Shown here: positions 18,232 to 23,188 of the stretch, piece by piece
Layout: every line of letters starts with the position of its first letter
Numbering within the stretch: position 1 is the first letter of the stretch
Assembly (NCBI RefSeq): GCF_002982315.1
Contig: NZ_MWZD01000017.1
Span: 806,001-870,000 of the forward strand
DNA length: 64,000 bases
Direction of reading: 5' to 3'
Source: Leucobacter massiliensis
GTDB lineage: Bacteria > Actinomycetota > Actinomycetes > Actinomycetales > Microbacteriaceae
Translations under genes and position numbers: made by a program
The notes under the pieces: generated by a model
Database searches by the model: none
The model's input: the letters and a program-made list of their open reading frames with translations, nothing else
Told to the model about the DNA's origin: nothing

Positions 18232-19119
18232 ATGACGGCTCAACTGCTCGATGGGATTGCTGCTGCGGCGCAGATCAAGGGGGAGCTCGCCGTGCGGGTC
18301 GCCGCGCTGCGGGAACGGGGGATCGTGCCGGGCCTGGCGACCGTGCTCGTCGGGGACGATCCCGGCTCCCGCTGGTACGTCGCGGGCAAGCACCGCGACT
18401 GCGCCGAAGTGGGCATCGCGTCCATCCGGCGCGAACTGCCCGCGACCGTCACCCAGGACGCCCTCGACACGGTCATCGACGAACTCAACCAGGACCCCGC
18501 CTGCACCGGCTTCATCGTGCAGCTCCCCCTGCCCGCGCACATCGACACCGACCGTGTTCTCGAACGCATCGACCCCGCCAAAGACGCCGACGGCCTCCAC
18601 CCCACCAACCTCGGCCGCCTCGTCCTCAACGCCACCACCCCGATCCGCTCCCCCCTGCCCTGCACCCCCCGCGGCGTCATCGAGCTCGTGGAACGCAACG
18701 GCCTGTCCTGGGCCGGGAAACACGTCGTCGTCATCGGGCGCGGCGTGACCGTGGGACGCCCCATCGGGCCCCTCCTGACCCGCCGCGAACACAACGCGAC
18801 CGTCACCCTCACCCACACCGGCACCCAGGACCTCCCGGCCCTGCTGCGCGAAGCCGACGTGATCGTCGCCGCCGCCGGCAGTCCCGGCATCGTCCGCCCC
18901 GAGCACGTCCGCCCCGGCGCGATCGTCCTCGACGTGGGCGTGTCCCGTCACACCGACCCCGGCACCGGGAAGAGCCGCATCGCCGGCGACGTCGACCCCG
19001 CCGTCGCCCAGACCGCCGCCTGGCTCTCCCCGAACCCCGGCGGCGTCGGCCCCATGACCCGCGCCCTCCTCCTCCAGAACGTCGTCGAAATGGCCGAACG
19101 CACCACCCACCACCCCTAA
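18232..19119 (+). CDS. folD: Bifunctional methylene-THF dehydrogenase / methenyl-THF cyclohydrolase
   Basis: The 295-residue protein converts 5,10-methylene-THF to 10-formyl-THF using NADP. The catalytic Lys lies in [17 protein letters not shown], the conserved QLPLP and [11 protein letters not shown] follow, and the NADP loop is [13 protein letters not shown], with [10 protein letters not shown] near the end. It follows glyA by 7 bp under the same riboswitch. Codon use is unusual: GAA and AAA are frequent and third positions are overwhelmingly C, unlike glyA. This suggests replacement by transfer. The sequence immediately 3' is an adapter artefact, so the downstream neighbour is not reliably known. 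Confidence 0.94.
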
Positions 19120-19388
19120 CCCCTCCAGATCTATTGCATGCACTCACATTTTTTTTTTTTTTCCAAGAAAAGGCCGCCATACGAGACCACCCTCGGTCTC
19201 GTGGGCTCGGAGATGTGTAAAAGAGCCCCCCCCCCAACCCCCCGGCCCCCCGCCCGCACACGCGACAGCGAGCGGCGGTGCCGTGCGCGAGCCAAACCCC
19301 AAGGCATGGCGCACACCACCGCCACTCGCACACCACCACCACTCACCGCAGCCGAGAACCAACCGGACAGGAAGAAACAGGGGCAGGG
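19120..19388. other. Illumina adapter and low-quality junction sequence; no gene
   Basis: 14 T (19149-19162) lead into a degraded P7 primer (19164-19187, 18 of 24 bases match, including CATACGAGA). An 8-base index-like CACCCTCG (19188-19195) follows. Then comes a perfect GTCTCGTGGGCTCGG (19196-19210) and 16 of 19 bases of the Nextera transposon end (19211-19229). The following 150 bases are homopolymer-rich and non-coding. Read on the minus strand this is a read running through insert, adapter and into poly-A. It is not genomic, and the two flanks may not be neighbours. Confidence 0.95.
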
Positions 19389-22139
19389 TCAGAGAACGGT
19401 ACGGACCGTGGCCTGATCGCCGGCGAGCAGCCCCATGCGCGTCGCCTGCAGGATCGCCTCCTCCCGGCCCCGCGATCGGAGCTTGCGGTAGACGGCGTTC
19501 AGGTGCTTCTTCACCGTGGCCGCGGTGACGAACAGCGCTTCAGCCGTCGTGCCGATCGAGCGGTAGCGCGCGATGGCGCGAAGGGTCCGCAGCTCCATCT
19601 CCGTGAGCCGCTCATACCGGCGGCTGCGCGCAGGCTCGGGCACCGCGTCGACCTCCGAGGTGAGATCGCACACCCCGGCGTCGCGTGCGGCCGTGGCGAG
19701 GGCGTGCAGTTCGTCGTACGGCACGCCGCGCAGCGGGGTGCGCAGCGCGTGCTCGCGCAGCAGCGCCGCCGCCTCTCCGAGGGCCTCGAAGGCCTCGCGC
19801 TGCCGCCCGCATCCCCAGGCGGCGAGGGCCGTGATCAGCGTGCGATCCGCGCGCTGCCGCACCGTGAGCCCCGCACCCGCCTGCTGCGCCAGGAGCAGCG
19901 CCTGCAGATCGTCCAGCGCGAAGAGCGAGAGGCGAGCCCGCTCCAGGCGAGTGGCCGGCCGGTCCGGATCGATCATGCTGAGCAGCGATGCGGCGCCGGC
20001 CAGGTCCCCGAGCGCACTGCACAGCGAGGCACGGTAGAGCACCTTCCACTCCCGCCATGGCTCGGCCTCCCAGCCGAAGTCGCCGATCCGGCCGTGCGCG
20101 GCAGCGGGGGCGGGCTCGGCGGCGTCGTCCGCGTCCGCCACCGCTTCTGCCGCCGCGGGCCCCGGTTCCGGTGCGAGCTGAGCCGCGGCCCACTCCACGC
20201 CGCGCAGTGAGCGCACCGCCTCGGCCTCGATCATCAGCAGGAAGGGCGACGCCTCGATGCGGTCCCGCAGCGGCGTCAGCCGTTCGAGCGCAGCGCGGAG
20301 CATCTCGTCGTCTTCGTGCTCGATCGCGAGCGCCGCGCGGGCCACCTCCCCCACCACCCAGGTCGATGCCGGGCTGGTGACGCCGGCCTCCACGCCCAGC
20401 CTCGCGCACTCGTCGAGCAGCTCGGCGCAGCGGGCCATCCGCCCGTCGAGGGCGTCCGTGAACGCGAGACCGCCGAGCGCCGCGAGCCGCCAGCGGCGGC
20501 CCGACACCGCGTCGCCGACCGTGCGGGCGGGGTCGCGCACGAGCGGCTCGACCGCGCCGCGCTCGATGAGCGCCTCGGCGTGGCCGAGCATCCGGTTCCA
20601 GTTGCGGCGCGCGCGTTCGAGATCGCCGAGGCGCAGCGCCGTCATCGCGATCTCGCGGTAGTACACGAGCGCCGCGCCGAACTCGGGAACGGAGTTCGCG
20701 GCGGCGAATCGTCCGGCGGCACGCTCGTCGGGCGCCGGAGCGGGAGCGATCCTGGTCTCCAGTTCGCGAGCGTCGCGCGCCGCAGCGGCCGTGTCCCCGG
20801 CGGCACGTGCGAGCACCAGGCGCTGGGCGATGGTGGCGAGCCGCGTCTCCGGCGGAGGCTCAGCGCCCGCGGAGGCGAGGGCGCGCGCCTCGACCACCCG
20901 CTCGCTCACTCCGGCGCGCATGAGCTCGATGAGCCGCACGGTCGTGCTCGTCGGCGTGGCCGGATCGCCCGTTTCGAGCAGCAGCCGGGCCGAGGCGAAG
21001 GCGGGGTGCGCCGAGAACGCCCGCTCGGGCAGGCCGCGCAGGAATGCCAGGAGCGTCTCGCTCTCCTCGGTGAGGGTGATGAACCGGCGCGCGAGCACGC
21101 GCTCGGCGGCGGCGAGGTCGCCGGAGGCGCTGAACAGCTGGAATGCGGTCACGGGGGCCGCGTGCTCCAGCTCGCGGGCGCGGCCGTGCAGCAGGGCCGC
21201 ACGCTGCTCGGGGGTCAGGGAGCGCTCGGAGCGTCGCGCGAAGGCCGGCCGCACGGCCGGATTGCACACGAACTCGGTGCTGCCCGCGGTGCTGACCGGA
21301 AGCAGCACCCCGAGCTCGATGAGCTCGTGCAGCACCTCGCGCAATTCGGCGTCCCGCGCGCCCGTGAAATCCTCGAGTTGCGCGAAGGAGACGCCGTCGA
21401 GCACGGAGGCGGCGAAGAGGACGTGGCGCCCCGCATCGTTGACGATCTCGAGGTGGTTCAGCGCGAAGCGGCTGAGCTCGGTGCGGGGGTCGGGCGGATC
21501 CGCCTGCCTCTGCGGGGCGGTGTCCTCGTGCGCCGTAGCGGGGCCGAGCGCGGCGCGTGCGGCGAGCGGCCAGCCTCGGGCGTCGCGGATCGCCGCGTGC
21601 AGGCGGACGTCGTCGGCGCGGTGGTAGAGCGCCGCGAAGGCGGCGGCCTCCTCGGGGGTGAAGGCCAGTTCCTCCGCATCGAAGATGCGCACCGGGGTGC
21701 GGCTGGTGACCAGCGGGCCGTCGAGCACGCGCACGCGGCGAGCGAGCACCACCAGCGTGACGAGGGGATTGCTCGACGCGAGCTCGGCGATCAGCTGATC
21801 GTTCTCGGGCGACACCGCGTGATGGTAGTCGTCGAGCACGAGGGTGAGGGGCGCGGGCACGCGTGCGAGGATCTCGCGCACGGCGGCGAGGGGGAACTCG
21901 GGAGTCGTCGCCTGGGCGTCGAGCGTCAAGCTGAGCCGCTGAGCGACGTAACGCCAGAGCGAGTCGGCGCGGGCGGCGGAGCAGTCGATCCAGAGGGATC
22001 GGGAGGCGTCCTGCTCGATCCAGTTCCGCGCGGCGGTGGTCTTCCCGTACCCGGCGGGGGCGCGCAGCAGGAGCAGCCGGGAGCGGTCGCGGCTCTCCGA
22101 GAGCTGCTCCGAGAGTCGCGGACGGTCGAGGAGGCGCAT
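19389..22139 (-). CDS. Large ATP-binding LuxR-family regulator (MalT/LAL type)
   Basis: The 916-residue protein has an N-terminal STAND-like ATPase: Walker A APAGYGKTT at 27-35 and Walker B LVLDDYHH at about 100-107. A long, Ala/Leu/Glu-rich helical, TPR-like middle follows, and a C-terminal LuxR helix-turn-helix spans about 844-905 (LTEMELRTLRAIA, then AATVKKHLNAVYRKL). This is the MalT/LAL plan, in which an inducer and ATP trigger oligomerisation and DNA binding. No obvious target operon is adjacent; DedA is divergent 326 bp away. The 3' side adjoins the adapter artefact, but the stop codon and HTH are complete. Inducer unknown. Confidence 0.9.
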   Translation of the reverse strand: MRLLDRPRLSEQLSESRDRSRLLLLRAPAGYGKTTAARNWIEQDASRSLWIDCSAARADSLWRYVAQRLSLTLDAQATTPEFPLAAVREILARVPAPLTLVLDDYHHAVSPENDQLIAELASSNPLVTLVVLARRVRVLDGPLVTSRTPVRIFDAEELAFTPEEAAAFAALYHRADDVRLHAAIRDARGWPLAARAALGPATAHEDTAPQRQADPPDPRTELSRFALNHLEIVNDAGRHVLFAASVLDGVSFAQLEDFTGARDAELREVLHELIELGVLLPVSTAGSTEFVCNPAVRPAFARRSERSLTPEQRAALLHGRARELEHAAPVTAFQLFSASGDLAAAERVLARRFITLTEESETLLAFLRGLPERAFSAHPAFASARLLLETGDPATPTSTTVRLIELMRAGVSERVVEARALASAGAEPPPETRLATIAQRLVLARAAGDTAAAARDARELETRIAPAPAPDERAAGRFAAANSVPEFGAALVYYREIAMTALRLGDLERARRNWNRMLGHAEALIERGAVEPLVRDPARTVGDAVSGRRWRLAALGGLAFTDALDGRMARCAELLDECARLGVEAGVTSPASTWVVGEVARAALAIEHEDDEMLRAALERLTPLRDRIEASPFLLMIEAEAVRSLRGVEWAAAQLAPEPGPAAAEAVADADDAAEPAPAAAHGRIGDFGWEAEPWREWKVLYRASLCSALGDLAGAASLLSMIDPDRPATRLERARLSLFALDDLQALLLAQQAGAGLTVRQRADRTLITALAAWGCGRQREAFEALGEAAALLREHALRTPLRGVPYDELHALATAARDAGVCDLTSEVDAVPEPARSRRYERLTEMELRTLRAIARYRSIGTTAEALFVTAATVKKHLNAVYRKLRSRGREEAILQATRMGLLAGDQATVRTVL

Positions 22140-22465
22140 GCTCGGAACCTCAGCGCGCGGTGCCGCGCGTCGTGGCCTGCGCGCGGTGCTCGGGCGGGAT
22201 GCTGCGGTGCTGCATGGGTGGGTGTCTCACTCGGCCGGGGACTGGGTCGCGGGAGGCCGCGACGACCGCGTGTGTTCCCCCCGCCCCCATCCTACTGTTT
22301 CACCCCGGACTCCGTCCGAAGTTCTGGTGCCGGCCTGCAGAGCATCCGCATCGCGTCCGTCCGTGCGCAGCCCGCCCGCCTGGGGGCCTCTCAGAAGGTG
22401 CGTGCATACTGGTGGGGGCGGCGCCATCGTCGTCCGCGCCGCGACCACCGACGAAAGCCGAGCCC
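22140..22465. other. 326-bp divergent intergenic region between luxR and dedA genes
   Basis: No gene is supported here. A candidate extended -10 for the dedA gene, TGCATACT at about 22403-22410, lies some 56 bases before its GTG start; no matching -35 is clear. I see no strong inverted repeat. Confidence 0.5.
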
Positions 22466-23188
22466 GTGCCCTCGATCCTCGCCCTGCACGTCCCGCACGC
22501 CATGACCGAGCTCGCCGCGGTGCCGGCGCTGTTCGGCATCGAGTGGCTCGATCCCGAGACGCTGCTCAAGGCCGGAGGGTGGGCGGCCCTGATCCTCGCG
22601 TGCGCCTTCGTGTTCCTGGAGACGGGCGTGCTCGTGCTCTCGTTCCTCCCGGGGGACTCGCTGCTGTTCACGGTCGGGCTCTTCAGCGCGACGGGCATCA
22701 TCGACGTCCCGATCTGGATCACCTGCCTCCTGCTCTTCGTCTTCGCCTTCGCCGGGGACCAGATGGGATTCATGATCGGCCGCAAGCTCGGGCCGGCGAT
22801 CTTCAAGCGCGAGAGGAGCCGCTTCTTCAACCCCGAGAACGTGGAGCGCACCCACGCCTTCTTCGAGAAGCACGGCCCGAAGGCGATCATCATCGCCCGG
22901 TTCCTTCCCGTGTTCCGCGCCTTCGTCCCGGCGGCGGCCGGCGTCGGCCACATGAGCTACCGGCACTTCGTGACCTTCAACGCGATCGGTGCCCTGCTCT
23001 GGGGCGTGGGGATCACGCTCATCGGCTACTTCCTGGGGCAGATCCCCTTCGTGCGGGAGTACAGCGAGGTCTTCATCATCGTGCTGGTGCTGCTGCCGGG
23101 GATCCCGATCCTCATCGAGCTCTCCCGCGCCATCGGGGCGGCCCGCGCGCGTCGCCGCGCGGCCAGGACGGCCGAGACCGCCGAGTAG
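22466..23188 (+). CDS. DedA family membrane protein
   Basis: The 240-residue protein is a DedA/SNARE-associated (VTT) family member. Hallmarks: FLPGDSLLFTVG loop after the first membrane helix, GDQMGFMIGRKLG, HAFFEKHGPKAIIIARFLPVFRAFVPAAAGVGHMSYRHF (the conserved re-entrant and Arg-containing segment), and late hydrophobic helices. Family members act in lipid scrambling (undecaprenyl-phosphate or phosphatidylethanolamine recycling) and membrane-potential-linked stress tolerance. The start is GTG 22466; ATG 22502 is an alternative. It stands alone before the nucleoside-salvage genes. Confidence 0.9.
   Translation: MPSILALHVPHAMTELAAVPALFGIEWLDPETLLKAGGWAALILACAFVFLETGVLVLSFLPGDSLLFTVGLFSATGIIDVPIWITCLLLFVFAFAGDQMGFMIGRKLGPAIFKRERSRFFNPENVERTHAFFEKHGPKAIIIARFLPVFRAFVPAAAGVGHMSYRHFVTFNAIGALLWGVGITLIGYFLGQIPFVREYSEVFIIVLVLLPGIPILIELSRAIGAARARRRAARTAETAE

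Follow-up and report, generated by a model that had tools for sequence, protein, structure and literature searches.

Moeller et al. 2024 (PMC11536531) describe adapter contamination in MGnify genomes, both of isolates and of metagenome-assembled genomes (MAGs). In the cases set out there, exact 12-mers of the TruSeq adapter were counted, and these clustered at the ends of contigs, which they interrupt. The stretch of DNA analysed here (the window, 64 kb in length) resembles these cases in that an Illumina adapter was left in a deposited microbial assembly. It differs from them in that the adapter is of the Nextera and not the TruSeq type, degraded instead of exact, and located in the interior of a contig instead of at its end, within a block that is present twice. 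The exact Nextera Read-2 22-mer was found in at least 120 stretches of GTDB r220, and among the 129 matches listed 128 lie no further than 200 bp from the end of a contig. The window carries the same exact 22-mer but, unlike most of the listed cases, inside a contig of 876 kb. The only interior match among those listed (JAOAJQ010000047.1; L137 3943-3964) is a Read-2 adapter preceded by a run of N and an index-like 8-mer. The present case is an artefact of a known kind, which is unusual by its position in a contig interior and by its double use.

The adapter construct between folD and the LuxR-type ORF

The features of the region are listed below; coordinates are those of the window.

18232-19119, plus strand: folD (Pfam THF_DHG_CYH and THF_DHG_CYH_C), the left gene of the join
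19121-19148: 28-nt piece common to the window and the copy at C9:49.5 kb
19149-19162, plus strand: run of 14 T, which is poly-A after P7 on the minus strand
19164-19187, plus strand: degraded Illumina P7, 18 of 24 positions, ungapped
19188-19195, plus strand: i7 index CACCCTCG, 7 of 8 positions to CAGCCTCG
19196-19210, plus strand: Nextera Read-2 sequence GTCTCGTGGGCTCGG, 15 of 15 positions
19211-19229, plus strand: degraded mosaic end, 15 of 19 positions
19230-19414: insert of the chimera, shared with C9:49.5-49.8 kb, including the final 26 bases of the LuxR-type ORF
19389-22139, minus strand: LuxR-type regulator ORF, 916 aa as listed (Pfam AAA_22 above the cut-off)
22160-23188, plus strand: VTT/DedA-type gene (Pfam VTT_dom), start codon uncertain, the next gene beyond luxR

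Between positions 19149 and 19229, the plus strand presents 14 T, a degraded P7, an 8-base index, the Nextera Read-2 sequence and a degraded mosaic end in this order, with a single C separating the T run from the P7-like stretch. When the full P7-N8-Read-2-mosaic-end construct was matched without gaps and with the exact 8-base index spacing, 48 of its 58 fixed positions agreed, and the runner-up site on either strand of the window reached 30 of 58. The Read-2 sequence and the mosaic end combined agree at 30 of 34 positions. The matching used the adapter oligo sequences of Illumina Nextera libraries; P7 followed by an index placeholder is also printed in PMC4712552. Read on the minus strand, the same interval gives insert, mosaic end, Read-2 sequence, 8-base index, P7 and 14 A, which is the library order. 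The original prediction had placed a P7-index-Nextera adapter between folD and the luxR-type gene, and its coordinates were right. Its individual elements (14 T, the P7 matches, the 8-base index, a perfect 15-base sequence and most of the mosaic end) were all re-counted as claimed, and the read-through signature that it recognised on the minus strand, with the parts in library order and poly-A beyond P7, was confirmed as well. Positions 19149-19229 are a leftover Illumina Nextera adapter and not natural DNA.

The bare 15-mer is weak evidence when taken alone, since about one chance match is expected when two mismatches are allowed: at this threshold we found one match in the window (the exact one) compared to a mean of 0.85 in shuffled sequences. 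The case for an adapter therefore rests on the ordered construct and on its recurrence through the genome. The sequences to the left of the T run were scored as adapter candidates as well. The 28-nt piece is not supported by itself as a degraded Read-1/i5/P5 or P7 adapter, as between 229 and 1483 of 2000 shuffles attained its scores in four comparisons, and the folD side (19085-19120) shows no adapter signal (1922 of 2000 shuffles scored as high).

Recurrence of one library across the assembly

The assembly consists of 24 contigs (3.14 Mb), and the window is located in contig C9 (876,166 bases). Three pattern searches, merged by hand, yielded 48 degraded Nextera matches including that of the window (36 from the mosaic-end, 6 from the Read-2 and 6 from the i5-Read-1 search); this total counts separately two matches that overlap at the C17 start, and some of its 3-mismatch matches may be due to chance, though the reversed controls gave none. 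All 36 mosaic-end matches were obtained with up to 3 mismatches, a threshold at which the reversed pattern gave no match and which leaves out the window's own mosaic end with its 4 mismatches. Not one of the 36 is exact: a single match has 1 mismatch, and the remainder have 2 or 3. Nearly all of the 48 matches would thus escape a screen that looks for exact adapters. Of the 36, 24 lie in contig interiors and the other 12 no more than 200 bp from an end. Among 59 other genomes, the mosaic end was absent at the same threshold from 53, and G003, G024 and G034 had one match each. Several degraded mosaic ends were observed in G056 (4), G023 (5) and G021 (7), those of G023 all lying within 100 bp of contig starts. 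The reversed pattern occurred once each in G006, G011 and G031.

The Read-2 22-mer gave 7 matches in the assembly (control 0), of which that of the window is the only exact one. With the i5-Read-1 pattern we obtained 16 matches (control 0), and the index ACTGCATA was exact in 7 of these. Because this pattern itself contains the index, we prefer the less biased count at mosaic ends flanked by Read-1, where ACTGCATA was exact in 6 of 20 cases, two of these six being located in one shared block of C10. The i7 index CAGCCTCG was found exactly at C7:63595 and with one base off both in the window and at C5:185369; for the i7 side, the P7-N8-Read-2 pattern with 3 mismatches was noisy (19 matches versus 5 for the reversed pattern), and only rows that agreed with Read-2 matches were used. 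Both sequences are among the Nextera/Illumina indices listed in PMC4712552 and PMC9702565. In the former, CAGCCTCG is given as index 710, the same letters being printed for 711, and ACTGCATA as index 506. Since this i7 and i5 pair is shared among the copies, one dual-indexed library accounts for them. When up to 3 mismatches were allowed, no full P7 was detected in the genome, and every P7 copy, including that of the window, is therefore more degraded than that. Index sharing and enrichment over both the relatives and the reversed control were both found here, and they mark these matches as a Nextera read-through artefact.

The 19-bp mosaic end is common to Nextera adapters and engineered Tn5, and the mosaic end of the window could thus be read as the trace of an engineered Tn5-type transposon insertion. 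However, the Read-2 sequence, the index and P7 are library oligos, and all three are present beside it. The folD-luxR gap of 270 bp contains no transposase or marker ORF, and degraded copies that share one index pair occur throughout the assembly, in part close to contig ends. An engineered insertion was rejected on these grounds, and the chance that it is the correct explanation is vanishingly small.

A second copy of the block and the tail of the LuxR-type ORF

The sequence from 19121 to 19414 is repeated within contig C9, at a distance of about 776 kb, with 92.7% identity (291 of 314 positions with 13 gaps in the alignment of 19111-19414 to C9:49.5-49.8 kb). The shared block measures 294 bp in the window and 302 bp at C9:49527-49828, and it runs from the 28-nt piece through the poly-T, the adapter and the insert to 26 bases of coding sequence. 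Searching the genome with positions 19100-19400 returned a single further match of nearly full length, along with five short matches to the adapter part. The range predicted for the artefact (19120-19388) was thus nearly right, but the alignment to the C9 copy extends it to about 19414, into the 3' end of the luxR ORF. The second copy (C9:49506-49828; L005 1405-1727) is flanked by a formyltransferase-type gene and by a GntR/FCD regulator gene (Pfam GntR, FCD), the latter being the gene that is ended by the shared codons at C9:49.8 kb. To the left of this copy, a degraded mosaic end of the opposite side abuts the 28-nt piece (score 49 versus a best score of 40 in 2000 shuffles). Between the two copies, the insert shows 2 substitutions and a difference of one 10-base unit, so that the copies do not represent one identical read.

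The LuxR-type ORF, in which GerE scores just below the Pfam cut-off (22.5 versus 23.5 bits), remains in frame through the junction and ends (tail GLLAGDQATVRTVL) in the same codons as the GntR/FCD gene. The three LuxR-type relatives that are adjacent to folD align with it only up to residue 905-907 of 916, and their C-termini read MGLLSAAPAE, MGLLD and MGILDGLPEQTA. In contrast, four GntR/FCD relatives (52-70% identical) align through the final residue. Their tails (HVRHFEDTVRSVL, HVRHFEATVRSAL, HVRHFDSAVRTVL and HVQHFDSAVRMVL) can be compared with that of the C9 GntR/FCD gene (HVRNFEATVRTVL), and the native C-terminus of this gene is ATRTVL-like in all four. Because the GntR relatives align to the end and the LuxR-type relatives do not, the insert 19230-19414 most likely derives from the 3' side of the GntR/FCD gene at C9:49.8 kb. 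Its non-coding part had no significant match in the relatives' stretches of either locus (best E 0.21). Judged from these alignments, the C-terminal 7 residues (ATVRTVL) of the LuxR-type ORF are probably foreign, as is its stop codon, both having been grafted from the GntR/FCD tail.

That the ORF is in frame over the junction, and that the inserts differ in the way two real copies might, would also be consistent with a true duplication, in which the 3' end of the GntR gene and its downstream DNA really are present behind luxR as well and adapter-bearing reads of the repeat were built into both places. We consider this very improbable, as poly-T, adapter and 28-nt piece, none of which can be genomic, are part of the shared block as well, and as the lengths of this block (294 and 302 bp) fit a read.

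Gene order around folD and the proposed origin of the filling

Of 59 relatives with a folD match, the best 19 (L009-L027) were examined in stretches that extend about 1.5 kb past folD, with neighbour distances measured between alignment ends. In all 19, folD is preceded by glyA. Downstream, a convergent LuxR-type gene is located 61-249 bp past folD in 3 of the 19 (G033, G008 and G006; proteins 39-60% identical), and a VTT/DedA-type gene 18-967 bp past folD in 12, while neither type was found within the roughly 1.5 kb examined in 4. The two sets of relatives thus both place the right-hand sequence beside folD. Against this stand the 39-60% identity of the three LuxR-type proteins and the result that no VTT/DedA-type gene was found in the 12-kb stretches around them. 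The order folD - luxR - VTT/DedA gene is probably real, with only the filling being false. These relatives accordingly do not support the advice that the neighbourhood of folD and the LuxR-type gene be disregarded.

These data also bear on the possibility that the tail of a luxR-local read joined two unrelated contigs, which would make the folD/LuxR-type neighbourhood itself false. The junction does consist of adapter, the 4 relatives with neither gene would be in line with a chance neighbourhood, and the same assembly has many other adapter joins in contig interiors. However, the gene order in the other relatives speaks against such a join, and so does the insert adjoining luxR, which is most likely that of the GntR locus and not luxR's own. 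We therefore regard a join of unrelated contigs as unlikely. It is, by contrast, very probable that a chimeric, adapter-bearing piece from the GntR locus was reused as a false filling between folD and luxR, the gene order itself being most likely right. Points that weigh against this reading are the 28-nt piece, which resembles no adapter part significantly, the differences between the two inserts, the non-coding insert that matched no relative significantly, the 4 relatives with neither gene, the lack of a VTT/DedA-type gene around the LuxR-type relatives, and the genome-wide absence of a P7 with 3 mismatches or fewer. The idea of a read tail joining contigs thus holds insofar as adapter read-through serves as filling inside a contig, but the filling is a copy of the distant block.

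The reused piece probably arose as follows. A tagmentation (Nextera) library that carried a single index pair (i7 CAGCCTCG, i5 ACTGCATA) would have been sequenced with reads longer than many of the inserts, such that minus-strand read-through on a short insert produced insert, Read-2 adapter, i7, P7, poly-A and noise. As the remaining copies are degraded, recognisable adapters were presumably removed before assembly or deposition, and error-ridden copies would have survived in the reads. A chimeric piece composed of the GntR/FCD 3'-side insert, adapter and noise would then have been built in at its home locus, C9:49.5 kb, and the same piece used once more to close the gap that separates folD from the luxR end (19121-19414), where the true spacer and the 3' end of luxR should be. 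Either gap filling or the extension of contigs may have been the step that reused the chimera. With its length of around 300 bases, the block would fit one read, the reads presumably having been about 300 bases long.

As an artefact, the filling says nothing on the organism. We recommend masking positions 19121-19414 together with the C-terminal residues of the LuxR-type protein; the gene order over the join is usable with caution, and the other places in the list of 48 matches deserve the same check. We tentatively suggest, as a possibility falling somewhat short of an even chance, that degraded adapter tails act in this assembly as a small artificial repeat family. Pieces ending in such tails would be interchangeable gap fillers. 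In this way, a chimeric stretch some 300 bp long would be copied from one locus to a distant one and could supply an unrelated gene with an in-frame C-terminus that looks plausible; such errors would be missed by exact-match screens of contig ends and may be common in deposited Nextera assemblies.

Further adapter-bearing structures were observed in other contigs. Two Read-1 adapters are oriented towards one another at C7:64.4-64.6 kb; together with the mosaic end that abuts the block at C9:49.5 kb, this indicates that tail-to-tail joining of adapter-bearing sequence recurs in the assembly. In the same region of C7, an inverted repeat of 336 bp with 99.1% identity (C7:63.15-63.49 and 64.78-65.12 kb; L003 1039-1373 and 2669-3003) encloses three adapter remnants. 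A 509-bp block with Read-1/i5 adapter is present twice in C10 with 98.8% identity (C10:140.2-140.7 and 149.8-150.3 kb; L242 711-1219 and L243 756-1264), which suggests that an adapter-bearing piece was reused here in a similar manner. In addition, L243 (C10:149.5-150.1 kb) contains a duplication of 301 bp with 99.3% identity beside another adapter remnant.
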